This document shows, piece after piece, positions 7,657-47,587 of a DNA stretch of 64,000 nucleotides. Position 1 is the first letter of the stretch. Each line of letters begins with the position of its first letter. The position numbers and the translations under genes are program-made. The stretch covers positions 434,001-498,000 of the forward strand of contig CAJNOJ010000004.1 in assembly GCA_905250025.1 (NCBI GenBank), in the 5' to 3' direction. The DNA is from Adineta ricciae (lineage: Eukaryota > Rotifera > Eurotatoria > Adinetida > Adinetidae). Under the pieces are notes generated by a model. That model did not search any database and was not told the origin of the DNA. It saw only the letters and a list, made by a program, of their open reading frames with translations.

Positions 7657-8684
7657 TGAAAAATATGTTTTGACTTCTGTATTCAGATAAAAAGTAAAAT
7701 AATTCAAGAGTGATAGTTTTCTATATAAGATTCCTCACTTTATATTTGTTCAATGGTACAAAAAATAATATAGTGCATCAACCAGACAAAATTTTATTAT
7801 TTATTAAAAGTGATCAGAACAAATCAACGTGTTATTTCTTTGGGCGACATCACGTAATAGTAATAAGAAAATAAATCCTCCGATATCAATGTTAATTGAC
7901 TAGACGAACACGGTCGAAAATCACGTATCCAACTCAATATATCAGTATATTATTTTACCTGATTTCAGCATCTGCATCGTATATCTAAACATATATTTAT
8001 CTAAGTTATATGTTATTCAATATAACTCGAAAAAGTCATGATTCAGTCTATAGAAAGATAAGAGTTGTCGGAACATTATCCAATCTTTATAATCACAGTA
8101 AATGATAAACATCAAGATGATCGTATAGATATGATAACTGAATATCCGTAAATTCCTAGTACAGTCAAGCGTCTCATTGCTTAAAAACAATTAAATCGTT
8201 CGATGCATATTGATTATTCGTTGACAATTGTACTTGAAATTTGTCACCTACGCCGTCTGTTGTTTACTTCCTTCGTACATCCAGTTAGTCACAAAAAAAA
8301 GGAAATGAACTTGGAAATACGGCAGATCAGATGCGTATTTTCGTAGGTCGGAAGTAATAATTTCATGAATACTATGTTAGCAGAACACAGTTTCGTTTAA
8401 CGTAAATTTCCAACAATGTTGCATACAGAGTACATGATGATTCATCATTTGTATAGTAGGAAGAATCCAAGTCAAGCAAGCTTTTTTTCCTTTTCTGCAT
8501 ATGACGTTACAAAGAAAACAAATAATATTTGTTCTCTGGGAAGGTTTTTTCGATTCGAAATTAACTGCTGAAACCAAAAATTTCCATTTAACAGTCATCA
8601 CGTCTATTATACATATATATATATATACAATATATCAATGTGTAAACGTTATTATTACCAAAACAGCTTCTACATTTCATAATT
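7657..8684. promoter_or_regulatory. Divergent intergenic region between NHL-EGF and IAP genes
   Basis: The region separates two head-to-head genes, so it must hold both promoters. It is AT-rich, with an AT dinucleotide tract near 8610-8632 just upstream of the IAP start. I could not identify specific sites. Confidence 0.35.
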
Positions 8685-9815
8685 ATGACAAATTCGATAT
8701 CATCCAGTGAATTCGTCGAATCTTTCTCTTCATCTGCAGATCCCATAGAATCAACCGTAAGACCAAATCAAGCTGTAAGAAAGCGTGAGTATTCTTTACT
8801 CGAAGCAGACTCTCTTCGTGAAGTCCGTACTCGGACTTTGTCTCACTGGCCACATGTCATACCGTGTGCTGAATCTATGGCAAATGCGGGATGGTTTTCT
8901 TGTAATATATCTGATCGAGTAATATGCATTTATTGCAATACAATTTGTCATCAATGGACGCAAGCTGACGATCCAATCAAAGTTCATACTGAATTCGCTC
9001 CTCAGTGTCCATTCGTACTTTCTCTGCGCGACATAAAATCACCACTAAAGATTGTCAATACTTCATTAAACCAACTATTTGAACCTCTGCATCCAAATAT
9101 GGCGAATATTATTCGTCGTCAAGAAACATTCGTTAATCCTATGTGGACAAGTACATCACCGAGTATTGACGATTTCGTCCGCGCAGGGTTCTTTTTCGCT
9201 GGTGTATCGAATACAGTAACATGTTTTTATTGCAACGGTTCATTGCACAAATGGGGAACAGATGATAATCCCTTGGTTGAACACGCACGATGGTTTCCAA
9301 CTTGTATCTATGCTCGACACGCTTGTGGGGAACAGTTATACCAGAGAATTTCAATGGCTAAAAAGCGACTATTGACAGAAAATAAACTAACCCAGGATGA
9401 GTTGAATCGGCTAGTCGCAGCAAGAATGGATTTACCTATTGTTCAATGTCTTCGTTCTCAATATAAACTGGGAATTATCAAACGTTGTTTCGAAGAACAA
9501 TTGAGAATGAAAAATGACGATTTCGCGTCCGATTTAGATTTAGTCATGGCTTGTTATATTGTTCAAGCACAAATTGATAATATCCAAGGTTTCAAAGACA
9601 GAATTATTGTTCCATCGAAATATCGACAATCAGAAAACTCGATACAGGAATCGAATGAGTTACGAGGTGAATGTTTGGTGTGTCTGACTGAAGAAAAACA
9701 AGTAGCTTGTATTCCCTGTGGACATATTTGTGCTTGTGTTCCTTGTGGATATGCCCTGAAATCTTGCCCTGTGTGTCGAGAGAAAATCCAATGCTTTTTG
9801 AGAATCAATACATAG
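8685..9815 (+). CDS. Inhibitor-of-apoptosis protein, BIR-BIR-RING (376 aa)
   Basis: A single-exon gene. BIR1 spans about residues 46-111 with zinc ligands C81, C84, H101 and C108; BIR2 spans about 145-212 with C180, C183, H200 and C207 (RAGFFFAGVSNTVTCFYC). A UBA-like helical stretch lies near 265-298. A C-terminal RING (330-367) has C330, C333, C345, H347, C351, C354, C361 and C364 (CGHICACVPCGYALKSCPVC). This is the cIAP/XIAP arrangement minus one BIR and minus a CARD. IAPs bind caspases or IAP-binding-motif proteins through BIRs and ubiquitinate partners through the RING, mostly in the cytosol. The start is the ATG giving the usual unstructured N-terminus. Lack of introns is unusual beside its neighbours. 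Zinc ligands are complete, so I expect a working E3. Confidence 0.93.
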   Translation: MTNSISSSEFVESFSSSADPIESTVRPNQAVRKREYSLLEADSLREVRTRTLSHWPHVIPCAESMANAGWFSCNISDRVICIYCNTICHQWTQADDPIKVHTEFAPQCPFVLSLRDIKSPLKIVNTSLNQLFEPLHPNMANIIRRQETFVNPMWTSTSPSIDDFVRAGFFFAGVSNTVTCFYCNGSLHKWGTDDNPLVEHARWFPTCIYARHACGEQLYQRISMAKKRLLTENKLTQDELNRLVAARMDLPIVQCLRSQYKLGIIKRCFEEQLRMKNDDFASDLDLVMACYIVQAQIDNIQGFKDRIIVPSKYRQSENSIQESNELRGECLVCLTEEKQVACIPCGHICACVPCGYALKSCPVCREKIQCFLRINT

Positions 9816-9966: not shown

Positions 9967-12363
9967 TCAAAAATTCGCATTAGTGTCTTCTGATCGTTTT
10001 GGAATAATATTCAATTTTCTTGGCGCATCAATAATAGGCTTTCTTGTCGGGTCAACAATACATTTTGATATTTCTGCTGACATTTCAGCTGTTTTGCGTT
10101 TCAACTCTTCTAGATCCTTGATGTTTCTCACTTTCTTAAGATATTCTTGAATGATGTAAATTTCAGCCCGACAGTCATAACAATGATCCAATCCTTCATT
10201 AGGTACGCTGTCCATATCGTGTTTATAATACGCTACTCGCATTACGTTCTGGAAATAGTATTGTGCACTTTCGAATTCTTGATGATCATAATGAATTTTT
10301 TTAGCATCTTTCTTCACCAGTAATCGACATTCCATAGCTTTTCTTGATGCCCATGGTTCGATGATTGGACAGCCATCGAGATATTCAGTCGATCCAGACT
10401 CACGTGGAAGTCGGAAATTCAATAAGGCTGCAAACGGCTTCATTATAGTATACCATTGCAGCTGATCAGACATATCACTGTTAGGCGCCGCGTTGTTTCC
10501 ATATAATGCCGGAGTGTAGGTACGAACATTACAAATAAATAACAATTTTTTTCTCAATTTGTTAACACTTCCCGCAATCTCATTGGTAAATTTCTCTTTG
10601 TGAACTTTCATATTCCCACGCGAATATATTGCGAAGTCTTTATCATCGAATAGTAGAAACTCCATTCTTGAAAAAAGCGAAGCTAAATAGACTATATGAA
10701 TACCAGGAGCAGCTCCAGCGTAGATAACCACATAGTCGGGATCATTGCCATATTTGGTAAGAAACTCAATCTCCGGTAAGAGCAGTTTTCTTTGTCCCCA
10801 ATGTTCAGTAGTGGTGATCTTATTTGAATTATTCACACTGATTTTCACGAATGGAGGTAGTTTTGCCAATAATCGACGATCAGCTTTATTAAACTCTTCC
10901 TCATTGTGTTGCAATAGATCATTGTTTATAAAAAGTTCACGCAAATGTGGATTCTCATCGTATGTTTCTTGAAATTTTGTATCAAGTTTTAGACGTCTCA
11001 CGTCATAGTTTTTCTCATGGTTCAGACGCTCCACAAGTCGCCTTTCGTCTGCATACAATTCCGAGTTACCCATTACACTTTGATTGATTTGTGGCAGTTT
11101 CATAGTGTTTGTACTATATAGTTCAGAACCACCATGTTGAAAAGCTGGTCGATGATTGTTGTGGTGTGAGCCTTGGTGTTTATTTTTTCCATTCCTAAAC
11201 AAACGTATGAATACAATCTTTTCTGTTACAAAATGTAAACAATGCAATAAATTTTGTTCGATAGAACTCCATGTAGTATTCAAGTCGAGTTTTCGCTCTG
11301 ATTGTGGAATGGCTCTATTCGTATTTCAGACAGTATCTTACCGTAACGGCTGTTGATCAAAGACTGTACGTAATTCTCTCATAAACGAGATTGACCATTC
11401 AATGTCATCCATAGCTCGATGATGAACATTCACTGGTCCTTTACGAGCTAACCGTGCTTTGATTTTCTTTTCCATCCAAGGTGTCCATCTTCTCATAATC
11501 GCTTGAAATGAGCTCACGTCGATGATGCGATAATGTATGTAGCTGTGCACTTTTGGCATTTCTTGTTCTAGTACACGTTTGTCAATGTGAATCGAACTTC
11601 CAGCCAACGAACACATTTTCTCCGGACAGTGACGTTTTATTACAGTCAGTAACTCTTCTTCTACTTGTTCTCTAGTCAGCTTAGATTTGAGACAATCAGC
11701 GAACAAATCATTGCCGCCATCCTTTACATCTTTAAATGTGTCTTGATGCCATTGACCGAGCCCACTCAAGACTGATTGGTCGAAATGAATAACCCAGTTC
11801 CCTTCATATGTCAAAATCGATTATTTCGTTCGTGAAAATCTGCAAAAGGAGAAGTATACAATACCTGTTTCTAACGGGTTCAAATTAGGGTCAGTGATGA
11901 TAACAGCACATTCCATAATTTCCGGAGCTTCGAGAGATGTCATTTCAAGGTCAAGCCATATGATATTCATTGAATTTAACTTTTCATCATCTGATCGCCA
12001 TGTGGATGATCCTTCTGCTCGAGCAACCGTTGCTCCTAATTCGACCAGCAAATCGCATATTTCTCCTTTCTCACTTTTGGCCGCGAGCTCGCACGGTGTC
12101 AACCAATCTGACACGCGCTTAATGTTAATATTAAATTTATAATCTGTGACTACCAAACGGATAGCATCTGTCATTTCGTATTCAACAAGCTCATGAAGCA
12201 ATGAATTTTTCTTTGGCGTCTTGTTATCATACCATTTTTCAAGAGTGGCTCTACCAAATTCGCGGAGAATTTCAGTGAGCATTCTGACGAATTTATCTTG
12301 ATCACGATGGTTGGCAGCCAGAAAAAGTCTTCCAAGTGCTACATTAACGTCATGCATCGACAT
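9967..12363 (-). CDS. Ankyrin / oligoribonuclease / VP39-type 2'-O-methyltransferase fusion (728 aa)
   Basis: Exons 11865-12363, 11342-11801 and 9967-11194 (introns 63 and 147 bp) join in phase to exactly 729 codons; a 5' UTR intron (12408-12477) precedes the ATG. Residues about 45-115 contain ankyrin-like repeats. Residues about 133-315 are a DEDDh 3'-5' exonuclease of the oligoribonuclease/REXO2 family with the full set D138, E140 (WLDLEMTSL), D240 (SIHIDKRVL), H294 and D299 (HRAMDDI); this family degrades 2-5 nt RNA. After a polar linker, residues about 450-670 match the poxvirus/giant-virus VP39 cap 2'-O-methyltransferase family (Pfam PARP_regulatory): AdoMet loop AGAAPGIH (479-486), K456, E608 and GLDHCYDC (655-662). 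Two of the expected K-D-K-E catalytic positions read Asn (N542, N579), so the methyltransferase half may be a cap binder or inactive. I know of no described protein with this fusion. Viral ancestry of the third domain is inferred from family distribution. Confidence 0.85.
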
Positions 12364-14369: not shown

Positions 14370-14813
14370 AAAAGCGAATATTGAGTGTAATGAATAAATA
14401 TCCATTTTCTATTTAACTTCTTTCCTTTTTTATCTTGTATTCATTGCGCATAAAAGTTTTTTGTATGAAAGCTATCGAGGTCAAGTGCAAGATGCATTTT
14501 CTAATTATCCTCAGTGGGGCATGACATAATTCATTATAAATTTGTTTCACTGTTTAAAAAGATCCTAAATGACAGAAATACCTAAGTGGTTCTTTCAGAG
14601 AGTGTTTATTTGTTTCCAAGCAAAGTTTGTATTGACATACAGTCTCTCGTAAACGAGAGTCACTATACATTCTTCTGACTAGTTATACAAAAAAAAAATT
14701 CGTCCGTTCTGCACCGAAATAGAGATAAACATAAAGCCATGTGTCTTCAACAGAAGATAAGAAATAAGCATCGTTACACCTTTTGTTCGCGTTTTACTTT
14801 CTATTTTGACGAC
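14370..14813. other. Intergenic upstream of the first SDR gene
   Basis: Short AT-rich spacer. An in-frame ATG at 14739 precedes the chosen SDR start, but paralogue alignment supports the later ATG at 14814. Confidence 0.35.
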
Positions 14814-15791
14814 ATGGCTTTGTTAATTCTTTTTGCACTGACTCTCGATTTAATCTATCGAGCATATCGGTATTTCTTTCCACATCCAGACATAGATCCT
14901 AAAGGAAAATATGTTTTAATATCTGGCTGTGATACGGGTTTCGGTCGTCAATTAGCTCTCGAACTTGATAAACAAGGTTTTCATGTTTTTGCTGGTGTGT
15001 TGAATTCAAATAGCGAAACATCATTTCGTGAAATACTTTCCCAACGTGCAACAGTCTTTCATTTGGATGTTACTAAACAAGAAGATATCGATGCAGCATT
15101 CGCATTAGTGGAAAAGGAAACGAATACACTTCATGCACTTGTCAATAACGCTGGTATCAGTACAAGTGGTTACATCGATTGGATGACAATGGAATCGATG
15201 CGGCGAATAATGGAGGTGAATTATTTTGGGCATGTGAACATGACAAAAACGTTTTTACCACTACTCATCTCGCGGCGTTATTCACGTGTTATTAACATTT
15301 GCTCTGTAGCTGGAATTGTTTCAGCACCGATGAAATCAGCTTATTCAGCATCGAAATATGCGTTAGAAGCGTTTTCCGATTGTCTCCGACGAGAAATGGC
15401 GTCATGGAATTTATATGTGAGTATTATTGAACCGGGTCCAATGCGAACGCCGATTATTGAAGGGCATGATGAATATATGACTAAATTTTGGAGTCAACTG
15501 CCGAATAACGTTCAACAACGGTGGGGCGAAGATTTTCTGAAGGTTCAAATGAAAAAAATATCAGACAACTTTCTCTATCGTCATGCCGAAGATCCAGCTA
15601 AAGTTGTTCGAGAGCTCCAACATGCTATTATTAACTCAAAGCCTGATACTCGCTATAGACCGGGTTGGCAAGCAAAATTCTTCTTCTTTCCACTATCAAT
15701 GGCTCCTACTTGGCTCTCAGACTGGATTTTGGTACGCGCAGTGAATTCGGACACAGTTCCTGCTGATGTACGCAAACAGCACACAGAATAA
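14814..15791 (+). CDS. Membrane-anchored short-chain dehydrogenase, RDH/HSD17B6-like (SDR copy 1)
   Basis: 325 aa, no intron. It has an N-terminal hydrophobic anchor (ALLILFALTLDLIYRAY), the NAD(P) motif SGCDTGFG, NNAG, and the catalytic pair in AYSASKYALEAFSD, then EPGPMRTPI. This is the classical SDR layout of the SDR9C group (retinol, 17-beta-hydroxysteroid or 3-hydroxybutyrate dehydrogenases), which oxidise or reduce secondary alcohols or ketones at a membrane. I chose ATG 14814 over 14739 because the five paralogues begin directly with the hydrophobic anchor. It is the only forward-strand copy and converges tail-to-tail with copy 2. The substrate is unknown. Confidence 0.9.
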   Translation: MALLILFALTLDLIYRAYRYFFPHPDIDPKGKYVLISGCDTGFGRQLALELDKQGFHVFAGVLNSNSETSFREILSQRATVFHLDVTKQEDIDAAFALVEKETNTLHALVNNAGISTSGYIDWMTMESMRRIMEVNYFGHVNMTKTFLPLLISRRYSRVINICSVAGIVSAPMKSAYSASKYALEAFSDCLRREMASWNLYVSIIEPGPMRTPIIEGHDEYMTKFWSQLPNNVQQRWGEDFLKVQMKKISDNFLYRHAEDPAKVVRELQHAIINSKPDTRYRPGWQAKFFFFPLSMAPTWLSDWILVRAVNSDTVPADVRKQHTE

Positions 15792-15898
15792 AATTCTTTT
15801 TTTTTTGTGTAAGGAAATAAGATGATTAAGTCGTAAACGTTTATTGAATAGAATAAAAAAAGATATAGGGATTGTTCATACATTTTTATAAATCGAAT

Positions 15899-16882
15899 TT
15901 AATCTCGAATTTGACTTTGAACACTTGCCGGAATAATATCACTTGAACGCATATTGCCTAAAAGATAATCGACGAATGCAGCAGGCAACATTGATAAAGG
16001 AAAGAAGATTAGACTGGACTGAATTCCCGGTCGATAACGAATTTCAGGAGCAGTATTCATCACTGCATGTTGAAGTGCTTGGACGACTTTGATTGGATCT
16101 TCAGCTCTTTTCGTTAGTTCTTTATTATCTAATTTCGTATGATATGATTTTATATATGGTTCTCCCCATCGTTGTTGAGCATCATTTGAAAGCGCGCCTA
16201 AAAATTCGGGAAATGGTTTGACCAGATTTTCAATGATAGGTGTTCGCATAAATCCAGGCTCGATGATGCTAACACGTAGATTCCATGGTATCATCTCTCG
16301 ACGAAGACAATCCGAAAATGCTTCGAATGCATATTTTGATGCACAGTATGATGCCATTCCGGGTCCAGCTAGGTAACCAGCTACCGAACAGATATTCACA
16401 ACACGTGAATCACGTTTCGCAATCAATAAGGGTAAGAACGCTTTCGTCATGGCCACGTGTCCGAAAAAGTTCACATCCATCACTCGACGCATAGTTTCCA
16501 CAGTTGTCCAATCGATAAGATAACCACTACTGATACCTGCATTATTGACCAATGCGTGTAAAACTTTTGTTTTACTTTGCACCAATTCTAGTGCTGCATC
16601 GATATCCTCTTGTTTAGTAATATCAAGACGAAATACAGTTGCTCTGGATGAGAGTTTATCTTTGAGTGAGGTGACATTGTCTGTAGAATAAACACCAGCA
16701 AGCACGTTGAAACCGTGTTTATCAAGTTCAAGAGCTAATCGATTACCGAAGCCAGTATCACATCCAGAGATGAGAACATATTTGCCTTTTGGATCGATGT
16801 TGGGTGTTGGAACAAAGTGTCGATACAATCGATATCCCACATAAAGTATGATCGCAGTAGAAAGTAAAAAACACGCTACCAT
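15899..16882 (-). CDS. Membrane-anchored short-chain dehydrogenase (SDR copy 2)
   Basis: 327 aa, single exon. N-terminal anchor (FLLSTAIILYVGYRLY), cofactor motif SGCDTGFGNR from residue 39, LVNNAGIS, catalytic SYCASKYAFEAFSD, and EPGFMRTPI. The active-site residues are complete. The cofactor-binding half is almost identical at DNA level to copy 5 (19671-20654), with only a handful of differences over about 270 bp near 16540-16810 versus 20320-20590, while the C-terminal substrate region differs strongly. That pattern suggests gene conversion or a recent partial duplication. Likely the same reaction class as copy 1, with different substrate preference. Confidence 0.9.
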   Translation of the reverse strand: MVACFLLSTAIILYVGYRLYRHFVPTPNIDPKGKYVLISGCDTGFGNRLALELDKHGFNVLAGVYSTDNVTSLKDKLSSRATVFRLDITKQEDIDAALELVQSKTKVLHALVNNAGISSGYLIDWTTVETMRRVMDVNFFGHVAMTKAFLPLLIAKRDSRVVNICSVAGYLAGPGMASYCASKYAFEAFSDCLRREMIPWNLRVSIIEPGFMRTPIIENLVKPFPEFLGALSNDAQQRWGEPYIKSYHTKLDNKELTKRAEDPIKVVQALQHAVMNTAPEIRYRPGIQSSLIFFPLSMLPAAFVDYLLGNMRSSDIIPASVQSQIRD

Positions 16883-17284
16883 ATTGACTTCGCAAATCTA
16901 GAATGAAGTTTATGTTATTTTTTGAATCGCGAGAAAGAAATGTGACTCGAGAAGAAGAATATTTGCGAACGGTGGCCAACCTTTATATAGAGTATCGACA
17001 TTGCATTTTTCTTTCTTTTCTTTATCTTTTCATTAGTTCTGCTGTGTACGCATGAATCATTAGTATAACAAATTCTGTCCTCTTTTCATTCTATTTTTAC
17101 GAATCTATATGTGCTCTGCAGGAATGGACAAAATACTGGAAGTACGTATACGCAGAAAAGGTTCGTCCGAAGCATACGTGTCAAAAGTAGTGAATATATT
17201 TTCTTGTCACGCAATTATACTTACGATTTACCTAAAATCTTTTTATCAATTCAATCAAAAGAAATTACATAAATGGTATATTAT
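16883..17284. other. Spacer between SDR copies 2 and 3
   Basis: Contains the promoter side of copy 2. No gene seen. Confidence 0.3.
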
Positions 17285-18262
17285 CTAGTTCGACTGTTGC
17301 TTTCGTAGTTCAGCTGGAATGAAATGTAATACTTTCGCTAAGAGTTTGTCAATTAACCAAACTGGAGGAAGATAGAATACAACAAAAATCATTTTCGCTT
17401 GCCATCCCGGTCGATAACGAATACACGGTTTTGTGCTCATCACCGCATGTTGAATGGCTTTGACAACAGTTAATGGACTATCTGCATATTTAATAAACGG
17501 ACTGCTTAACGATTGTTGAATGATATTATTCAAAAATTCGATGCCCCATCGTTGTTGAGTGTCAGCGGAAAGTCCATTCCAAAGAGCGCGTAAATTTTTT
17601 TCATAATTTTCAGTCATCAGTGTTCGTAAGGTACCAGGTTCGATGATACTCACATGCAGACCCCACGGTCTCATTTCTCTTCGGAGACAATCTGAAAATG
17701 CTTCCAGTGCAGATTTTGATGAAGAGTAGGCACACGTATTTGGAAAGGCGAAGAAACCGGTTGCTGAACACATATTCACCACACGCGAATAAGGTTTCGT
17801 TAAAAGCAGAGGTAAAAACGTTTTCGTCATAGCAACGTGTCCAAAATAGTTCACATCCATAATTTGACGCATTAGATTCATGGATGTCCAATCAATGCAT
17901 CCGTGTGTAATGATCCCGGCATTGTTGATGAGTGCATAGAGAGTGTTCGTTTTCTTTTGTACTAACTGTAGTGCAGCATCGATGTCATCTTGTTTGGTAA
18001 TATCCAAATGAAAGACAGTGGCTCTGGATGAAAGTTGATTTGTTAATGATGTAATATTCTCGTGAAGATATACTCCAGCAAGTATATTAAAACCTTGCTG
18101 ATCAAGTTGCAGAGCTAGGGAATAGCCTACACCAGTGTCACATCCTGATATCAGTACATATTTGTCATTTGAGTTGACATTCAACGTTGGATAGAAATGA
18201 TTGTAAAGACGATAGATGCTATAAATTATGATGATGACTAGAGCAATACTAAAGAATAACAT
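17285..18262 (-). CDS. Membrane-anchored short-chain dehydrogenase (SDR copy 3)
   Basis: 325 aa, single exon. Very hydrophobic N-terminus (FFSIALVIIIIYSIYRLY), SGCDTGVG, INNAG, catalytic AYSSSKSALEAFSD and EPGTLRT. Catalytic Tyr and Lys are present. The C-terminal half (substrate side) differs from the other copies, and the protein lacks the Pro in the RTPI segment found in copies 1, 2 and 5. It lies in the same orientation as copies 2, 4, 5 and 6, with its own spacer, so it is probably transcribed separately. Confidence 0.88.
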   Translation of the reverse strand: MLFFSIALVIIIIYSIYRLYNHFYPTLNVNSNDKYVLISGCDTGVGYSLALQLDQQGFNILAGVYLHENITSLTNQLSSRATVFHLDITKQDDIDAALQLVQKKTNTLYALINNAGIITHGCIDWTSMNLMRQIMDVNYFGHVAMTKTFLPLLLTKPYSRVVNMCSATGFFAFPNTCAYSSSKSALEAFSDCLRREMRPWGLHVSIIEPGTLRTLMTENYEKNLRALWNGLSADTQQRWGIEFLNNIIQQSLSSPFIKYADSPLTVVKAIQHAVMSTKPCIRYRPGWQAKMIFVVFYLPPVWLIDKLLAKVLHFIPAELRKQQSN

Positions 18263-18454
18263 GGTATGCTATACAACAAGAGTTGAAGAAAAAAAACAAC
18301 GCGGTTATTCTTATATGATGGTTAACAAATATTTCTCTTTGCACGTGGTCGGTGATGTTAGAAGTGCAGGAAAGAAAAAAAAAACAACGAGACATGAAGA
18401 AAAAGTATTTGCGCTATTCTATTTGATTTGTACTCTTACAGCATTCAAGAAGTT

Positions 18455-19429
18455 CTATTCGGAGAGTTGATGCTGAACACCAGCAGGAATTGATGTTTCT
18501 CCCAGATTTAAAAGAAAATCCATTATTTGAGTCGGACAAATGCATGAAAGCAGAAAGAACGAATTTGATTGCCATCCTGGACGGTATCGAATTGCAGGAC
18601 TGCTGTTCGATATTGCGTGTTGTATTGCTAGTACTACTTTATTTGGATTCTCAGCACCGACTATAACCGAACTATTCTTCACTTGTAATACTGTATTATG
18701 GAAGAAAATATCTCCATAACGATCTTGAACAATTTTAGTGAGTTGTCTCCACAAATTTTCGATACGATAGTCTAAATTCTCGATAAAAGCTGTTCGCATC
18801 GCTCCAGGTTCAATGATACTAACATGAAGATCCCACTGTGTCATCTCGCGACGAAGACAGTCAGAAAACGCTTCGAGAGCATGATTTGAAGCTGATAACG
18901 CAGAAGTTCCAGCAAAAGATACATAACCAGATATTGAGGAGACATTCACAACTCGAGAAGAACGTTTAGCAATCAATAATGGTAAACACGTCTTCGTCAT
19001 GGCGACGGCTCCAAAGTAATTCACATCCATTACTCGACGTATAGTTTCAACAGATGTCCAATCGATTAAGTAACCATCAGCTATGCCTGCATTATTGACA
19101 AGTGCGTGTAGAGCATTTGTCTTACTCCGTATAATTTGAAAAACTGCATCAATTTCATCTTGTTTTGTGACATCCAGACGAAACACTGTTGCTCGTGATG
19201 AGAGTTTGTCGCTTAGCGCACTGAAGTTATCGAGATTGTGTATACCAGCTAAAACATGAAAACCTTGTTTATCGAGCTCGATGGCTAGTAGATGGCCAAC
19301 GCCGGTATCACATCCGGATATTAAAACATATTTTCCAGTTGGATCGATGTTTGGAGATGGAAGAAAATACCGATGATATATTCGGTAACTACAATAATAT
19401 ATTACTCCGAGAATGATAAGTAGAAACAT
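18455..19429 (-). CDS. Short-chain dehydrogenase paralogue lacking catalytic Tyr and Lys (SDR copy 4)
   Basis: 324 aa, single intact exon with N-terminal anchor, SGCDTGVG (residues 39-46) and VNNAGIADG. At the place where every neighbour has Y-x3-K, this copy reads SALSASNHALEAFSD: Leu at 178 and Asn at 182. The frame is otherwise unbroken and the fold motifs are kept, so this is not obvious decay. Known SDR chemistry requires this Tyr as general acid/base and this Lys for cofactor binding and pKa lowering, so the protein should be catalytically inactive; it could be a scaffold or partner of the active copies. A sequencing error is unlikely to explain two separated non-synonymous changes. Confidence 0.85.
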   Translation of the reverse strand: MFLLIILGVIYYCSYRIYHRYFLPSPNIDPTGKYVLISGCDTGVGHLLAIELDKQGFHVLAGIHNLDNFSALSDKLSSRATVFRLDVTKQDEIDAVFQIIRSKTNALHALVNNAGIADGYLIDWTSVETIRRVMDVNYFGAVAMTKTCLPLLIAKRSSRVVNVSSISGYVSFAGTSALSASNHALEAFSDCLRREMTQWDLHVSIIEPGAMRTAFIENLDYRIENLWRQLTKIVQDRYGDIFFHNTVLQVKNSSVIVGAENPNKVVLAIQHAISNSSPAIRYRPGWQSNSFFLLSCICPTQIMDFLLNLGETSIPAGVQHQLSE

Positions 19430-19670
19430 ACTAACAATTATTTATATATCTATACCGCGCAGGAATATGACTGTGTAAAGGTAACTATCATCGAACAACG
19501 TTGTTTGATTTTTGTTCTTTCGAATCACGTGTACGTGTATTGCGTCTATATATGCAATCACCCTTGACTAGATTTTTCTCCATTATTTCAGTGAAAGGAC
19601 AATGTATTAATTTATTATTGTCTCTGAAGATATTGTAGACTTAGAAAATATCGACAATAAACTCAACGTT

Positions 19671-20654
19671 TTAGCCTTTCAATTGATTATGAACACCAGC
19701 CGGTTGAATGGGTGTAGAAAGCATCTTTATCATTAGGAAATCCACTAACCAACTTGGAAACATTGATAAGGGTTGAAACAAAAATTTGCCCTGCAAGTCC
19801 GGTCGATATCGAATGTACGGTTTACTATTCATAACCGCATGTTCAAGTGCACGTACTACTTTCATTGGATCTTCAGCATTCTTTATACATAAATTCTGTC
19901 GCACTGATTTATCAACTAAATCATTGAAAAACTCTTCTCCCCAATTTTCACGTTTCTTCGGTTCTAATTTATTCCATAAATCTTGTAGTAAACGATCATG
20001 TCCTTCGATAATCGGTGTTCTCAGCCAACCAGGTTCAATAATACTAACACGTAGATTCCATGGTATCATCTCTCGACGAAGACAATCCGAAAATGCTTCG
20101 AATGCATGTTTCGATGCACAGTATGCTGCCATGCCTGGCGGACTAGTAAAACCCATTACTGAACAGATATTCATAACACGTGAATCACGTTTGACAATCA
20201 ATAAGGGTAAGAACGCTTTCGTCATGGCCACGTGTCCAAAATGGTTTACATCCATTATTCGACGCACAGTCTCCATTGAAATCCAGTCGATGTATCCACC
20301 ACTACCGATACCTGCATTATTGACCAATGCGTGTAAAACTTTTGTTTTACTTTGCACCAATTCTAGTGCTGCATCGATATCCTCTTGTTTAGTAATATCA
20401 AGACGAAATACAGTTGCTCTGGATGAGAGTTTATCCTTGAGTGAAGTGACACTGTCTGGAGAATAAACACCAGCAAGCACGTTGAAACCGTGTTTATCAA
20501 GTTCAATAGCTAATCGATTACCGAAACCAGTATCACATCCAGAGATGAGAACATATTTGCCTTTTGGATCGATGTTGGGTGTTGGATAAAAGTATTGGTA
20601 TAATAAATATATTACATAGAGAATGATCAAGCATCCTATAACTAAGCATATCAT
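19671..20654 (-). CDS. Membrane-anchored short-chain dehydrogenase (SDR copy 5)
   Basis: 327 aa, single exon. Anchor (ICLVIGCLIILYVIYLLY), SGCDTGFGNR, VNNAGIGSGG, catalytic AYCASKHAFEAFSD, EPGWLRTPI. I start at ATG 20654, in register with the paralogues; an in-frame ATG-less extension upstream to 20729 is not supported by them. Shares a near-identical N-terminal half with copy 2. Expected to be an active NAD(P)-dependent membrane oxidoreductase. Confidence 0.9.
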   Translation of the reverse strand: MICLVIGCLIILYVIYLLYQYFYPTPNIDPKGKYVLISGCDTGFGNRLAIELDKHGFNVLAGVYSPDSVTSLKDKLSSRATVFRLDITKQEDIDAALELVQSKTKVLHALVNNAGIGSGGYIDWISMETVRRIMDVNHFGHVAMTKAFLPLLIVKRDSRVMNICSVMGFTSPPGMAAYCASKHAFEAFSDCLRREMIPWNLRVSIIEPGWLRTPIIEGHDRLLQDLWNKLEPKKRENWGEEFFNDLVDKSVRQNLCIKNAEDPMKVVRALEHAVMNSKPYIRYRPDLQGKFLFQPLSMFPSWLVDFLMIKMLSTPIQPAGVHNQLKG

Positions 20655-20763
20655 TTTCCGAAGGTATCTACAAAAATTTAATAGAAATAGTTCATTATGT
20701 TTTGGAAAGAAAAACGCATGGCATGGCACTTAAATTCGAACAAGAAAGAGTATATACTTCGAC

Positions 20764-21732
20764 TCAATCGCTTTGATGTATTATTCCCGCAGGACGACCA
20801 CGGAATCCCAGGGCTATTAGTTTATCGAGAAGAAAAGTTGGTAAGAGCGATAATGGGAAAAAGACAAGATTTGACTGCCATCCTGGTCGATAACGAATTC
20901 GAGGTTTACTACTAACTATACCATGATTGATTACTCGAACTACTTTGTTTGCAGATTCGGCATATTTAATGAACGGGCTGTTGATGACCATTTTGAGCGT
21001 ACGATCGAAATATTCTTTACCCCATCGTTGCTGAACGTCGCTAGGTAATCGAAGCCAAACATTTCTTAAATTATCTTCCAATCCTTCCATGATTGTCGTT
21101 CTCATCGTACCTGGCTCGACGATGCTAACATGTAAATTCCATGGAATCATCTCACGACGAAGACAATCTGAGAATGCTTCCAATGCATATTTTGATGAAC
21201 AATATCCCGAAGAACCTGGAAGAGCGATATAACCGCACATAGAAGATATGTTGATTACGCGTGAGTTACGTTTTGCAATCAGTAATGGTAAAAACGTTTT
21301 GGTCATAGTCACATGCCCAAAATAATTCACATCCATTACTCGACGCATAGTTTCCACAGTTGTCCAATCCACATGGCCGGCTATTGCAATACCAGCATTA
21401 TTAACTAATGCATGTAAAACTTTCGTCTTATTTTGCACCAGTTCAAAAGCGGCATTTATATCGTCCTGCTTGGTAATGTCAAGAGGAAATACAGTTGCTT
21501 GGGATGAGAGTTTATTCTTTAATGAATTCACACTATCTGGAAGGTAGACACCAGCGAGAACGTTGAAGCCTTGTTTATCAAGTTCAAGAGCTACCTGATG
21601 GCCAAAGCCAGTGTCACATCCAGATATGAGAACATATTTGCCTTTAGGATTGATATTAGGTGATGGAAGGAAATGTTGGTATAATCGATAAATCAAATAT
21701 GAGAATATTAAGAAGCCGAAAAATGAAATCAT
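20764..21732 (-). CDS. Membrane-anchored short-chain dehydrogenase (SDR copy 6)
   Basis: 322 aa, single exon. Anchor (SFFGFLIFSYLIYRLY), SGCDTGFGHQVAL, VNNAGIAIAG, catalytic GYCSSKYALEAFSD and EPGTMRT. Active-site residues are complete. Most upstream of the reverse-strand array; its promoter lies in 21733-22552, shared with the divergent LIM-RBR gene. Confidence 0.9.
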   Translation of the reverse strand: MISFFGFLIFSYLIYRLYQHFLPSPNINPKGKYVLISGCDTGFGHQVALELDKQGFNVLAGVYLPDSVNSLKNKLSSQATVFPLDITKQDDINAAFELVQNKTKVLHALVNNAGIAIAGHVDWTTVETMRRVMDVNYFGHVTMTKTFLPLLIAKRNSRVINISSMCGYIALPGSSGYCSSKYALEAFSDCLRREMIPWNLHVSIVEPGTMRTTIMEGLEDNLRNVWLRLPSDVQQRWGKEYFDRTLKMVINSPFIKYAESANKVVRVINHGIVSSKPRIRYRPGWQSNLVFFPLSLLPTFLLDKLIALGFRGRPAGIIHQSD

Positions 21733-22552
21733 CGCGTTGCGTTTTTGGACACGCGCAAAAGTGAAACACCACCGATATTTTTCTTCGTTGTTTTATTGAA
21801 GCGAGGCTTCAAACACGTGCGTAAGCGAAGTACCTGAGAGAATAATATTTATCTTTCGTTTGGTTTCTCGAGTAATTCAATGTGTTGAGGTATTTTCAAG
21901 AGTAGAAAAGATAATTGCAACTATGATACAATTTCGAATGAACGATGACGAATATTCTATTACAACAATCAACTGTTGAATTCTTAATCACATATAGGAG
22001 TATTTTTATGTTGAGTTTACGATATACCTGAATGGTTAGTAATTGTAGTATTTCGATTAACTCAAGTGGTGACTGGGTGCTTGGTATACCTCAGAGAACT
22101 TCGACAGATATCAGCTGATAATTAGAAATTTTTATATAGATCTATACAGAATGCAATACCACCGATCGGTGATTCAATTTTTGTTACTCCGACGATGTGT
22201 CAGTAGCGATATGTGGTCTTTGTATTTTACACAGTTGAAGTACTGTTTAATCATGAAAACAAGTTTTTATAAATTACTTTTTCTGCGTTCTGAATAGGTT
22301 GTTTTTAAGACGTACAGAATATGACATAATGTGCTCTTGAGGAGAAAATGACTCGCTTTCTGTTAGATGATGAAATAATCATTCTTTTGTCATGTTCTGT
22401 TTTGAAGAAAAAAAGCAATTGTTCTGTCAGTATATCGTGAATAAAATTTGGAAAAAACCAACAGTTGCTTATACAGTATATAGTCGATACGCATTGCTTC
22501 GTAAAACAGATGTTCATATTTAGAGTAACAACGTTTATCAAAAACATCGCAA
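21733..22552. promoter_or_regulatory. Divergent region between SDR copy 6 and the LIM-RBR gene
   Basis: Head-to-head spacer of about 0.8 kb. No additional gene or clear motif seen. Confidence 0.35.
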
Positions 22553-24977
22553 ATGTCGAAAATCTGCTTCTCGTGCTCGATCAGTCTTATCGGAAGTAAA
22601 TATTACACGAAGAACGATCATCCTTACTGTATCAGTTGCTATGAGGAACAGTTTAGTAAGACATGTGCAAAATGTAATCAAAAGATTCGCATTGGACAAC
22701 AGGTCAACATTACATTTCAAGTGATTCTATATTAGACCTTGCCTAATTTTAGAGTTCCACATGGGCTAATAAGTCTTGGCATAACAGTTGCTTCAGTTGC
22801 ACTGATTGTGACGTCTCATTAATGGGATTCTCATCAATACTAAACAGGAACAAGCAACCGTATTGTGCAAATTGTTATAATCTTAGATTTTCACCCAGGT
22901 GTGAGAAATGTGGTAGAATTATTGAATCAGGTACAATCTAACAAATCGAATTGAATCGACTGATAATTTTCAACTGTAGGAACATCTTGGATAGATGTCA
23001 AAGGAAACAAACTCCATCCCCATTGTTTCACTTGTACTCAATGTCGTGTGTCTCTGAATAATCAATTGTATTACGAACACAATCAAAGTCCTTATTGTGC
23101 TACTTGTGATGCTGAATATTTTTGTCACAAATGCGCCAAATGTGGACAAACCATTAGCCGAGGTATGAAAGTTTGTTTTTGTATTTCTATGGATTTTTCA
23201 ACTATAATCACATATCCCAATGCAGTACATCTACGCTAAAATTTTCGTTTTGAGTACAAAAATTTATGAACTAAAAAGTTTTTGTCTTGATTTTGAAGGT
23301 TCGATCTATTCGAAACACAATGGTCTCACGATTCATAATACTTGCTTCACTTGCCATCACTGTGGACAAATGATAAAAGGATCATACAGGGAAAGAAACA
23401 GCCAGTACTATCATCCGAGTTGTCTTGATGGCGTTCCTCTACTCGAAAGACGACGTTCATTCGTTGTAAGTCTGGGATTTATATGAGATCTTCTGAATTT
23501 CTTCGGTATATTGAAGGAATCCAATTACAACGACCCAACCGAGCAGGATCAAACAAAGTATATTAATCTATTGATAATGAATCACGATATTTACAAATAC
23601 ATTTTAATGACTTGATAGGTACGGTTCCTTTGCAACTAAAAGTACTCAACGGAGAACCTTTCAAGAATTCAGCACCATCACTGCGCTCAATTTGACAGCT
23701 CCGCGAGCAAAAACGAGTCGTACGCGTCGTTCATTCAATGATACACCCAATACACCCCGTGAGATAAATCAAAAAACCAGTGAAAGCTTATCTCAACTTA
23801 ATCGAATACTGTCATCCTTCCCAAGAAATCAAAATGCACCGAATGCCACGACACAGCATCACCTCACGGGTGTGTATAAACTTTTGTTCGATCGCTTGAT
23901 TTGGACTAAAAATATTTTTTATGTCATCCCATACTATCTTCATAAGCTTACTACTGTCAATAGATGAACTATATTCAATATTTTTTATCTGTTGTAGTTA
24001 AATCAACACAAACTGATCTCACACACTCGATTAGACCAGAAAAACAAATTCAAAGCCAACAGCTATCTCTCCCAGCTGCATTTCCTTTACGTAGGTGATA
24101 ATTGTTGTATATCTGCTCTAAATTATTATGTATATTATACTTTAGCTGTGAGACAAGACATATCCTTGAATCCAACGAACCATTCTGATATGTAAGTAAC
24201 TTATACGAACATCTGATTATCATTTTGGCCCTTTCTGTGTTCCACTGTAATACTTCTTGTAGAATACCACCGAGAATAGCTGTGCGTAAAACGAAAACAT
24301 GCCAAGTGTGCTCTGAAACTAAGCCGATATCATCGTACAGCAATCGAATCAGTAGACAATGTAAACATTCTGAATGTAAAATCTGTAACGAATGTATCTA
24401 CCAACACGTTGCCCATGCATCTCAGACAATGTGTAGAGCTGATGTGCGCTGTCCTGAACTGGATTGTCCGATTATTTTAGATTATGAAGCGCTCAAAAAG
24501 ATACTACAGCGCGCGCAAGATTTCATCCTCCTAGAGCGGTATGATCGGTTCTATGTAGAACATCAATTAGAGAAGAATCCTGAGTTCATTTGGTGTACAC
24601 ATGGATGTGGCTCGGGTCAACTTGCTGAAAATGGCGACCAGAATAACATCATTACGTGTATCAAATGTGGGAAGAAATCCTGTTTTATTCACCGAGTTAA
24701 GTGGCATGAAGGTGTCACGTGTGCGGATTATGATAGACAGATCGATGGCAATAGACAAGCTACTCATCGATGGCTGTCACTGAATACCAAGCAATGTCCT
24801 AGCTGTCAATCGGCAATCGAAAAAAGATCTGGCTGTGATCATATGACATGTGCGCGATGTCATTTTGAATTTTGTTGGGGATGTCTAGCCAACTATGCCA
24901 ATATCCGAAATGACGGCAATCATCGACATCATCCACACTGCAGGCACTATCGTGCATTACCCAATAATCAGAATTAA
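22553..24977 (+). CDS. LIM-domain / RBR (RING-IBR-RING) E3 ubiquitin ligase fusion (607 aa, 9 exons)
   Basis: Exons 22553-22702, 22753-22930, 22980-23162, 23299-23465, 23517-23557, 23619-23869, 23998-24090, 24146-24191 and 24263-24977; every junction is GT-AG and phases close to exactly 608 codons. The first 250 residues hold half a LIM module (CFSC...YCISC) and three LIM domains (for example HPHCFTCTQC, PYCATC). A disordered Ser/Thr/Gln-rich linker follows. From C383 there is RING1 (CQVC), then an IBR, then RING2 (CPSCQSAIEKRSGCDHMTC) with the expected catalytic Cys at C561 and FCWGC. RBR ligases pass ubiquitin through a Cys thioester, like HHARI and parkin. LIM domains bind proteins, often of the actin or adhesion machinery, so the fusion may target cytoskeletal partners (inference). 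I know of no well-described LIM-RBR protein. An upstream exon completing the first half-LIM could be missing. Confidence 0.85.
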
Positions 24978-44690: not shown

Positions 44691-44821
44691 GAGGGCGCGC
44701 CCCCCGCCCCCCGCAATCCGCAAAAGCATTACTGGATGCAGGCGCCGTAACAGACGGCATTCCTTTCCCAACGGGTTACGACGCCATCGATGCGTTGCTT
44801 GCACCGCATTGCGGGCGGTAG
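44691..44821 (+). CDS. C-terminal fragment of a bacterial protein
   Basis: Open to the left junction; ends in a GC-rich reading (ALLDAGAVTDGIPFPTGYDA) with stop at 44819-44821. Convergent with DoxX, one base apart. Family not recognised. Confidence 0.4.
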
Positions 44822-44822
44822 C

Positions 44823-45248
44823 TTATCTTTTACCGAAAAACTTTTGATCCAGGGAAAACTTGCCGGGGCCGGCAAAGAGCAGCAATAGTGCGATGCCGAA
44901 AAATACGAGCGGCAATTCGAATGAACCGCCCTGGCCTGTCATGTTCACAAACGGATCTTTGAACAATACGCTGTGGAAATATACGGCAACCGACATGGTG
45001 ATGCCGATGGCCAACGCCGCCAGCGGCGTGAACAAGCCCAGTACAAACAGGATGCCACCGCCGAATTCAGACAGCGCGGCCATCACCTGTAAAAAGGGCG
45101 ATAAGGCAACAGGGCCGCCGGGCGGCATCCAGTTTGCAGGTGCCTGTATCTTGCCCCAGCCGTGCAGGATGAAAGCGATTCCGACGATCAGGCGCAGCAC
45201 AAGCAGCGCAGTGGCAGTAGCGGTGGATTGAGCAGGTACTTTGAACAT
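44823..45248 (-). CDS. DoxX family membrane protein (141 aa)
   Basis: Four hydrophobic helices with the DoxX signature: first helix LRLIVGIAFILHGWGKIQAP, then ALSEFGGGILFVLGLFTP, and a C-terminal helix LPLVFFGIALLLLFAGPG. DoxX proteins are small bacterial inner-membrane proteins linked to quinone- or thiol-dependent redox. It lies 49 bp downstream of the sugar dehydrogenase gene on the same strand, a likely operon. Bacterial, no intron. Confidence 0.85.
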   Translation of the reverse strand: MFKVPAQSTATATALLVLRLIVGIAFILHGWGKIQAPANWMPPGGPVALSPFLQVMAALSEFGGGILFVLGLFTPLAALAIGITMSVAVYFHSVLFKDPFVNMTGQGGSFELPLVFFGIALLLLFAGPGKFSLDQKFFGKR

Positions 45249-45297
45249 GGTGCATCGGGTTTTAAAGGTCTTTTAAATTACGCTTTTTCCACCACTT

Positions 45298-47052
45298 TTA
45301 TTGCAACGACAAAATATACCGCGCTATCTTCTTCGTGTCCGTTAACGGGATATTGGCATGCGGGGCCATCGGTATCTGCCCCCAAACGCCGCTGCCGCCT
45401 TTAATGATCTTTTGGGCAATCAGGTTGACGTTTACCTCGGTGGGTCTGTATTTCCGGGCAATATCGAGGTACGACGGGCCGATGAGTTTTTCCGCTGGTT
45501 TGTGACACGTTTTACAATCGGATTTTGTGATCAGCAACCGTCCTTCTTCGATATCTTTTTTAGCGAACACCGCGGGTTTCAGCACCGGCGCATTGTCTGT
45601 AAGCAGGCGGTTAGCCGTGTAGCAGATGAGTTTGTTCTGCAACGCAACGCCGGTGGCAGTACGGATGTTTTCCAGTTTCAGCTCATATACATACCCGGCT
45701 TTTAGTTCATTGAGCACTAGCGAAACCCGCTTACGGTCCGGCGAAAGCAGCACCTGCTTAATGGCTACGCTGTCCAGGTTCATTTGATGCGAGCCGTATT
45801 TTTTGTGGTAGTTGTAATTGTAATGCCGCATGGAATAATTGCGCACGTTGCGGGCCGCGGCCGCGTCTACGGGTTGTGTGAACACCAGGTCGAAACCCTG
45901 TTTTGTCAGCTGCATTTTATAAATATCCAGCGGCGCCCTGCCGGTGTATATGATGCGTTGAATACCTTCGTCGCCCAGCCAGCCGTGGGCGTTTTGCCCT
46001 ACGTACAAACTACCGTCGGGAGCAAAGGCCAGCCGGTTATTACCTTTGCGCAGGCCCTGCCCGTCGAGGAACGGCACGCACGCGCCCTGCAGTTCGCCGC
46101 CCACTTTCTCGAGCATAACCCGTACAATGCGCCCCTGGTTCATTTCGCCGATCAGCAATTGCCCTGCAAAGGGGCCGAATTTGCCGCGCGTGTTATCGCA
46201 CAGGGGCTGCGTGGGCGAGTTGGCCATGATGCCGTGCGGAAATATCACGGCCGGTTTGGTGCGCATGCTGTCGAGCGTTGCCGCCGGCAACGAAAAAGGG
46301 TTGCCTTTGTTCCATCCCTTTTTCCAGACAAGGCTGGCGGGGTGCCCGTAGAACCGGCCTTCCTGCACATGCAGCAGCGGGCTGGTGCCGATCCAGTCGC
46401 CCTGGTTATCGGTGGCAAACAGGTTGCCGGCAAGGTCGAAACCGATCCCGTTCGGTGAGCGGAAACCCATCGCGTAGGGCAACAATTTACCGGCGGGTGT
46501 CAGTTTCATGATCCAGCCGCGATACGGTACTGCGGAGAACATTTGTTTCTGCCCGTCTGCACCGTCCCTTCCTTCCGGCTTAATGATACCCCGTACTTCC
46601 GGCCGCATGGAGCCGCCGGGAGAAGAAGCGTTGAGTGCGATGAACAGATTCCCGTATTTATCTTTCACAGGGCCGTAGTTGAACTCGTGGTAGTTGCCGG
46701 AGAGGCCGAAGGCATCCGTCACTTTTTCGTACACGTCCGCCACCCCGTCGCCGTCCGTATCTTTCAGGCGCGTAAGCTCGGGGCGGTGCATCACCAGCAC
46801 TTCCGAATTACTGATAACCAGCATGCCCAGCGGATCGTGAAAACCTTCCGCAAATAATTTCCATTCGCGGGTACGGGGGCTCCACGTCATGATCTCTCCT
46901 CTCGTAAAACCCGCTATCAGCCTGCCGTCCGGCAGAAATTCGATGGCGCCCACTTCAGCGGTGAGGCCTTCCGGCATAGGAATGGTTTCCACTTTCCACG
47001 ATTGTGCGGAAGCCGCCTGCGTTATCAGCAGCCATCCCATCAACATCAAACA
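45298..47052 (-). CDS. Bacterial PQQ/sorbosone-type sugar dehydrogenase with C-terminal cytochrome c (5' incomplete)
   Basis: About 582 residues from the first visible ATG (47046). There is a signal-peptide end (LLITQAASAQS) next to the N at 47053, so the true start is probably lost. Beta-propeller segments follow (EFLPDGRLIAGF, DTDGDGVADVYEKV, GFRSPNGIGFDLAGNLFATD), then an Ig-like region, and a class I cytochrome c with haem motif CKTCH and likely Met ligand in the GQIPMAPH loop. Such proteins oxidise sugars or related carbonyls in the periplasm and pass electrons to cytochrome c. Typical of Chitinophagaceae-like Bacteroidota. Confidence 0.8.
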   Translation of the reverse strand, partial: CLMLMGWLLITQAASAQSWKVETIPMPEGLTAEVGAIEFLPDGRLIAGFTRGEIMTWSPRTREWKLFAEGFHDPLGMLVISNSEVLVMHRPELTRLKDTDGDGVADVYEKVTDAFGLSGNYHEFNYGPVKDKYGNLFIALNASSPGGSMRPEVRGIIKPEGRDGADGQKQMFSAVPYRGWIMKLTPAGKLLPYAMGFRSPNGIGFDLAGNLFATDNQGDWIGTSPLLHVQEGRFYGHPASLVWKKGWNKGNPFSLPAATLDSMRTKPAVIFPHGIMANSPTQPLCDNTRGKFGPFAGQLLIGEMNQGRIVRVMLEKVGGELQGACVPFLDGQGLRKGNNRLAFAPDGSLYVGQNAHGWLGDEGIQRIIYTGRAPLDIYKMQLTKQGFDLVFTQPVDAAAARNVRNYSMRHYNYNYHKKYGSHQMNLDSVAIKQVLLSPDRKRVSLVLNELKAGYVYELKLENIRTATGVALQNKLICYTANRLLTDNAPVLKPAVFAKKDIEEGRLLITKSDCKTCHKPAEKLIGPSYLDIARKYRPTEVNVNLIAQKIIKGGSGVWGQIPMAPHANIPLTDTKKIARYILSLQ

Positions 47053-47053
47053 N
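47053..47053. other. Assembly join (single N)
   Basis: Separates bacterial sequence (left) from eukaryotic sequence (right). Confidence 0.9.
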
Positions 47054-47587
47054 ATACATAAATGATGGCTCTAGTCGATCTAGTCGTTTGCCAGATTGTA
47101 CAAAACTCATAGGAATAGCATTGAGTTCATATCGACGAATGAGTTTCTTTAATTGTTCACAAATATGTATAATATCAATGGAAACACTCTTCACTTTGCA
47201 CCAGTGTTTGGCCCATTGTTCGTGTCGATTTTGGTCATCACAGAAAATGAAGATCGAATCGATGTTTGAAATATCATGTACACAAGGTACAAGACGTTGT
47301 CCAACTGATCCTGAGGTGATCAAACAAACATCGGTGTCGGTGAGAGTGAGAATAAAATCGATACATTCATCATTATCAGTGAATGTATAAATATCATTGA
47401 CAATGTATTGAAGATGTGTGATGGCATTCTGATAATCTGGATTACTGCTGTGAATGTGGGTGTCCAGCCAAATGACAGAAATATCTTGCGTCTCTTTGGT
47501 TTTTATACGATTCAATTCATTTGCTTGTTGAAAGGTGGCTGGTGTCTGTTCGAACATATCCAAACTGCCTTGTTTCTGATTTGCCAT
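47054..47587 (-). CDS. N-terminal fragment of a bdelloid-type multidomain protein
   Basis: About 178 residues from ATG 47587 (MANQKQGSLDMFEQ) to the N. A Rossmann-like receiver pattern is visible: DISVIWLDTHIHSS, DVCLITSGSVGQRLV, IDSIFIFCDDQNRHEQW, VKSVSIDIIHICEQL. Similar N-terminal modules precede ADP-ribosyltransferase and/or TPR repeats in bdelloid proteins (recalled, not searched). The rest of the gene is lost at the join. Confidence 0.6.

Follow-up and report, generated by a model that had tools for sequence, protein, structure and literature searches.

A Bdelloid Rotifer Gene Joins an Ankyrin-Type Domain and an Oligoribonuclease to a VP39-Type Domain with an Apparently Lost Catalytic Center

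A Three-Exon Gene of Adineta ricciae

Bdelloid rotifers are tiny, asexual, freshwater animals. We analyzed a stretch of 64,000 nucleotides (hereafter referred to as the window) from the genome of one of them, Adineta ricciae (GenBank assembly GCA_905250025.1, 130 Mb in 1033 contigs; contig CAJNOJ010000004.1, positions 434,001 to 498,000), and focus here on a gene on its minus strand (9967-12363) whose three exons yield 728 codons. Exon 1 (11865..12363) encodes an ankyrin-type N-terminal domain (approximately residues 1-115) and the start of an exonuclease with residues D138 and E140. Exon 2 (11342..11801) provides the remainder of this DEDDh oligoribonuclease, including D240, H294, and D299 and the residues of a 5'-phosphate pocket (S236, Y257, R258, and S263). 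Exon 3 (9967..11194) encodes a linker (approximately residues 320-375), which is in part of low confidence in the structure model, followed by a helical part with an NPHLR motif and a VP39-fold domain (residues 441-697) that contains an S-adenosylmethionine (AdoMet) loop (AGAAPG), a degenerate catalytic center (K456, N542, N579, E608, and R610) and a DHCYDC motif. Both introns have GT..AG borders; intron 1 (11802..11864; 63 bp) lies in phase 1 and intron 2 (11195..11341; 147 bp) in phase 2, with the frame coming to a stop just past the donor site if the latter is retained. We infer the joining of the exons from the sequence, and the spliced product corresponds to P0001, an annotated A. ricciae protein, with 100% identity and 100% coverage. 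An earlier note on this DNA had proposed a single animal protein of 728 codons read from three in-phase exons and including an ankyrin part; our data support the single gene and an ankyrin-like character of the N-terminus.

The same architecture is annotated, in the form of gene predictions, in seven species: A. ricciae, A. vaga, A. steineri, Rotaria sordida, R. magnacalcarata, R. sp. Silwood1, and R. sp. Silwood2. A diverged paralogue in the same genome (C301, protein P0021) carries introns of 68 and 53 bp whose phases are the same as those of the fusion gene; the first is found at the homologous site (phase 1), while the second (phase 2) is about two residues away from intron 2 of the fusion gene in an ungapped alignment of the linkers. 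Counted from a start 16 residues past the HRAM-type motif, methionine is absent from the first 60 residues in 17 of the 21 full-length fusion proteins, and 11 of these 21 proteins have no methionine ahead of the GQRK-type motif of the VP39 domain. A real fusion is favored because of the annotation across seven species, the same-phase introns of the paralogue and the scarcity of methionine in the linkers. Seventeen further proteins comprise the exon-3 part only; for some of these, the longest contig is as long (6761, 6552, 4892, and 67847 bases) as that of an ankyrin/nuclease piece, which suggests that the two pieces lie on one contig in each case. We regard the observation of the fusion as confirmed, well beyond chance.

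The Oligoribonuclease Domain

All five DEDDh residues (D138, E140, D240, H294, and D299) are present in the A. ricciae fusion protein, and all five positions are conserved in each of the 21 full-length fusions, so that the complete exonuclease described in the earlier note is borne out. In Orn/REXO2 enzymes, the 5'-phosphate of a bound dinucleotide is enclosed by residues S111, Y132, R133, and S138 (REXO2 numbering), as stated in a structural study (PMC6613908). The A. ricciae protein possesses all four of these pocket residues (S236, Y257, R258, and S263, respectively). Three of these residues are invariant in the 21 fusions, and the Tyr residue is replaced by His in one protein. Judged by these residues, the middle domain is a complete DEDDh oligoribonuclease (diribonuclease), and its complete active site leads us to predict that it is active as a nuclease. 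According to the same study, 5' termini of other kinds should be accommodated badly or not at all by a diribonuclease pocket (PMC6613908). Capped ends are therefore unlikely to be substrates of the bdelloid nuclease, since the pocket for a 5'-monophosphate is kept, which speaks against the coupling of cap recognition to RNA-end degradation envisioned in the earlier note. Known members of the Oligoribonuclease/REXO2 family (NCBIfam NF003765; PDB 6n6i, 6sty) differ from the bdelloid protein in that the latter carries ankyrin and VP39 fusion partners.

The VP39-Type Domain

The C-terminal domain matches the PF01358 profile with 47.1 bits (curated cut-off 25.4), and residues 441-697 were recognized as a VP39 fold; the structure model was built from 44 alignment rows (A2). 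The assignment of this part of the protein to the VP39 family, as made in the earlier note, is thus substantiated by the profile search. We then aligned and counted 195 VP39 domains from a set of 198 proteins; P0040 (domain too short), P0027 and P0038 (VP39 domain not found in either) were left out. Thirty-eight of these domains are bdelloid(-type), namely those of the 21 full-length fusions and of the 17 exon-3-only proteins, classed as bdelloid-type by an identity of at least 45% to the query domain; the near-copies P0009-P0012, all from R. sordida, were each counted separately. The 157 others constitute a top-ranked sample, drawn from listed matches that include the best 120 of 1246 VP39 matches. 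Seven of the eight rows of the alignment profile (A1) are non-bdelloid.

In the A. ricciae protein, the VP39 residues K41, D138, K175, E207, and R209 correspond to K456, N542, N579, E608, and R610, so that both catalytic positions D138 and K175 oppose an Asn residue in the alignment (numbering derived from chain positions). The equivalent of K175 is present in none of the 38 bdelloid(-type) domains, which have T, N, Y, S, or R at this position, whereas it is found in 155 of the 157 others (R in the remaining two). Likewise, the F180 position, which stacks on the cap, holds an aromatic residue in 0/38 bdelloid(-type) domains (R584 in A. ricciae) vs. 155/157 others. The equivalents of D138 (10/38 vs. 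157/157) and E207 (31/38 vs. 156/157) are partly retained, and the complete D138-K175-E207-R209 set occurs in 0/38 bdelloid(-type) domains and in 153/157 others. Kept are the equivalents of R209 (38/38) and D95 (37/38), and the E233 position, which is among the cap contacts named in PMC4402537, is occupied by Glu in A. ricciae and in 27/38 domains. The AdoMet loop occupies residues 479-484 of the A. ricciae protein and is intact, in its xGAAPG form, in 34/38. A D-H-C-Y-D-C-type motif close to the C-terminal end is present in all 38 bdelloid(-type) domains and in 121 of the 157 others. P0016 and the same-genome paralogue P0021 are not matched by PF01358 at an E-value of 0.05.

A mutagenesis study of VP39 describes the Lys residue that is lost from all 38 domains (K175) as a fully conserved residue of PF01358 with a key part in activity, and lists the K175C and D138E variants as inactive in its assay (PMC7736282). 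From this comparison of residues, we conclude that the bdelloid VP39 half has lost its catalytic center and, presumably, methyl transfer along with it. It differs from the VP39/PF01358 cap 2'-O-methyltransferases in the absence of the catalytic Lys and of the cap-stacking aromatic residue, and also in its fusion to a nuclease. Hence, the working cap module that the earlier note had postulated finds no support in any of the 38 domains. The database label is misleading in this respect: 12 of the 21 full-length proteins are named Cap-specific mRNA (nucleoside-2'-O-)-methyltra... (a cut-off name) in UniRef.

What seems to be an independent instance of VP39 degeneration is seen in the metagenomic proteins P0041 and P0042, which contain tandem VP39 domains; copy 2 reads SNIK and LRFR where copy 1 reads SDIR and LKFR/FKFR.

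Relatives and Origin of the Fusion

Ankyrin-oligoribonucleases with the same two N-terminal domains as the bdelloid fusion and with no PF01358 match are present outside the bdelloids (P0207, P0209, P0210, and P0211). P0207, a complete transcript open reading frame (ORF) from Lithocolla globosa (Rotosphaerida), exhibits 38% identity over 92% of the N-terminal query; the corresponding values for P0209 (EukProt) and for the metagenomic proteins P0210 and P0211 are 35-38% over 82-92%, with P0210 and P0211 residing on short contigs of 1.2-1.4 kb, beyond whose ends a further exon may lie. The ankyrin part of P0209 has no Pfam match at an E-value of 0.05. The position of REXO2 Y132 is occupied by His in all four proteins, and that of R133 by Gln in two of them. 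Because ankyrin-oligoribonucleases without VP39 occur elsewhere, the addition of the VP39 domain may be bdelloid-specific. When 30 oligoribonuclease domains were placed in a tree, the 13 that are linked to ankyrin formed one group (support 100/99), within which the bdelloid domains form a group of their own (97/92); 16 stand-alone enzymes and one REXO2-like A. ricciae gene on a long branch fall outside. The bdelloid nuclease hence groups with the ankyrin-oligoribonucleases instead of the sampled stand-alone enzymes.

Among the best 120 of 1246 VP39 matches are domains from Capsaspora, Naegleria, EukProt entries, medusaviruses, one archaeal metagenome-assembled genome (MAG) and many metagenome contigs, some of them positioned behind ankyrin repeats; the animals named among these listed matches, as among those listed for the N-terminal query, are exclusively bdelloids. 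A quick tree was built from 49 VP39 domains (47 of the 195 plus two viral ORFs). The 10 bdelloid rows form one clade in it (100 in the Shimodaira-Hasegawa-like approximate likelihood ratio test, SH-aLRT), but its backbone is unresolved and has long branches coming together; two IMG/VR rows are placed apart from the bdelloid clade, on long branches. The phylogeny that the earlier note had called for therefore unites the bdelloid domains and falls short of placing them among their viral and eukaryotic relatives. Given this backbone, the domain may have come from a donor (cell or virus) or may have been inherited with losses. A recent viral capture is one possibility that we could not place in the tree, to which the viral collection contributed just two loci.

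By identity (43%), the nearest VP39 relative beyond the bdelloid(-type) set among the matches listed is P0103, which is labeled as from an archaeal MAG and has a longest contig of 4552 bases; this may instead be a misplaced contig from a eukaryote or a virus. The metagenomic ankyrin-VP39 proteins P0053, P0109, and P0176 resemble the bdelloid fusion in carrying an ankyrin stretch N-terminal to VP39. Unlike the bdelloid proteins, they have the D138-K175-E207-R209 set intact, and no oligoribonuclease is among their listed domains.

Proposed Function and Alternatives

The three parts of the protein are each known singly; we encountered their three-part combination in bdelloids alone, with annotated matches in both genera. 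In the open-access literature, we found no description of a bdelloid VP39/oligoribonuclease combination or of an ankyrin-oligoribonuclease fusion. The architecture, the intact nuclease residues, the lost methyltransferase residues and their conservation across bdelloids can be read directly from the sequences. We lean toward the view that this ankyrin-diribonuclease-pseudo-methyltransferase protein employs its dead VP39 half as a non-catalytic regulator that binds RNA, a ligand or a partner; the fusion protein is then probably a regulated shredder of very short RNA and not a cap-modifying enzyme. The ankyrin part would dock the protein onto a partner, and the nuclease domain would cut 5'-phosphorylated dinucleotides and very short RNAs to mononucleotides. 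The VP39 fold, presumably no longer capable of methyl transfer, would serve as an arm whose binding to RNA, to AdoMet or S-adenosylhomocysteine (SAH), or to a partner protein positions or tunes the nuclease. Two bdelloid genera have retained, in one polypeptide, a diribonuclease that is intact and a methyltransferase that is broken; the simplest mechanism is an arm that binds without catalysis. The fusion is a test case for a capping enzyme that turns into a non-catalytic RNA module, and for possible nanoRNase control in animals that survive drying.

Poxvirus D12 is a subunit of the capping enzyme and not part of a nuclease. As a working analogy, drawn by description only, we liken the bdelloid VP39 half to this protein, which is an inactive 2'-O-methyltransferase homologue according to PMC4402537. 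The same source describes how poxvirus VP39 also lends processivity to the poly(A) polymerase of the virus as its partner. Both cases may be viewed as precedents for a non-catalytic VP39 role. Megavirus Mg18 (PMC4402537) and trypanosome TbMTr2/3 (PMC9479742) likewise serve as family comparators by description only.

Several observations weigh against the proposed regulator. The wedge residue of the nuclease (L21 in REXO2) is L in one of the 21 fusions (A. ricciae), the other 20 having I (11 proteins) or F (9 proteins), and the domain orientation in the structure model is unsure (predicted template modeling score, pTM, 0.55). Ten of the 38 VP39 domains have kept the catalytic Asp, and the AdoMet loop is broken in four (P0013, P0021, P0036, and P0039). 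The VP39 core is also less conserved than the nuclease (66% vs. 74% identity to A. vaga; 37% vs. 54% to the paralogue). The Megavirus VP39 relative Mg18 gave its poly(A) polymerase no help (PMC4402537), so that not all family members act in processivity. Finally, the kept AdoMet loop, E608 and R610 could mean that methyl transfer proceeds by another route.

A more specific version of the regulator, which we consider possible though rather unlikely, casts the dead VP39 half as a sensor of an RNA or nucleotide signal that switches or places the diribonuclease, possibly as a defense device. Possible signals are RNA 5' ends, poly(A), AdoMet/SAH, or the short-RNA debris left after desiccation or foreign-RNA invasion; if true, this would be a type of regulated nanoRNase for which we found no counterpart described.

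That the VP39 half is instead a decaying, inherited remnant without a role appears unlikely to us. Its slow decay is possible because conservation is lower in the VP39 core than in the nuclease, and the AdoMet loop of P0021 is gone while both P0021 and P0016 escape the PF01358 profile. Yet the open frame and the fold are retained in both genera, the DHCYDC-type motif is found in every domain, and the identity to A. vaga is higher in the VP39 core (66%) than in the ankyrin part (41%). Methylation of another target, via the kept AdoMet site and another catalytic residue or target atom, seems improbable: the AdoMet loop (34/38) and the D95 and R209 equivalents are widely kept, but any of T, N, Y, S, and R can stand at the Lys position, unlike what one expects of a re-purposed catalytic residue, and the loop is broken in the four proteins named above. 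The mechanism favored in the earlier note, in which an active module for cap recognition, 2'-O-methylation or both is coupled to RNA-end degradation as a surveillance or antiviral device, is very unlikely. Membership in the VP39 family, the fold, the mostly intact AdoMet loop and the Glu residue at the E233 cap-contact position are in its favor; neither the catalytic Lys nor the cap-stacking aromatic residue is present in any domain, and the retained phosphate pocket of the diribonuclease should barely admit capped ends (PMC6613908).

Hardly credible is a merger of two genes (an operon or read-through) by gene prediction: the unspliced frame ends right past the nuclease, so that the fusion requires the removal of intron 2, and trans-splicing is reported in rotifers (PMC3795323), but the matching intron phases of the paralogue, the 11 of 21 homologues without a methionine before the VP39 motif and the annotation across seven species led us to reject it. 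The published 23-base rotifer spliced leader has no exact match in the A. ricciae assembly, which counts little against a two-gene arrangement. Lacking such a match, we also dropped a link between the VP39 half and the spliced leader, whose cap is modified by VP39 relatives in trypanosomes (PMC9479742). A scan for bacterial-type promoters and terminators upstream of the fusion gene yielded nothing and is uninformative for animal DNA.

Other Oligoribonuclease and Methyltransferase Genes

The idea that the fusion is the sole oligoribonuclease of the genome was rejected, as pieces on C126 and C335 exceed the oligoribonuclease cut-off and weaker pieces are present on C45. Read by eye, these represent separate oligoribonuclease genes (L031, G000:C126; L032, G000:C335; L033, G000:C45) with two domain copies each; the first copy has DEDDh-type motifs and D or P at the position of the pocket Tyr (LDRSILD, HPSIVD), and the second is devoid of the DEDD start and reads HYRSID. 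Because the pocket Tyr of Orn is supplied by the other subunit (PMC6613908), these proteins may be single-chain pseudo-dimers. FtsJ-type matches are also present in the A. ricciae genome. Other genes (FtsJ-type; C126, C335, and C45) may thus take care of the usual cap methylation and of the usual oligoribonuclease task, an assumption in the case of the latter three since these genes are themselves odd. P0038, an annotated A. vaga protein, combines part of the oligoribonuclease described here with IBR-type domains and has neither ankyrin nor VP39 parts; an IBR gene is also present in the window (24189-24977).

Neighboring Genes in the Window

Tail-to-tail with the fusion gene lies a plus-strand gene (8646-9815) whose product, of the inhibitor-of-apoptosis type, shows two BIR matches as well as a RING finger. 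On the other side, six tandem short-chain dehydrogenase-like ORFs follow (14679-21792), the first of them, which is the only one on which Pfam was run, being on the opposite strand. A stretch with a GC content of 0.48-0.61 (window 0.36) at 44750-47070 contains a bacterial-looking ORF with DUF7133 and cytochrome c matches, which leads into a run of unknown bases at about 47 kb; it is either a foreign insert or an assembly join. A cytochrome P450-like gene on the plus strand (52388-53776) consists of two open pieces, the first of which has a Pfam match just below the cut-off; it looks bacterial in type and is thus possibly a foreign gene.
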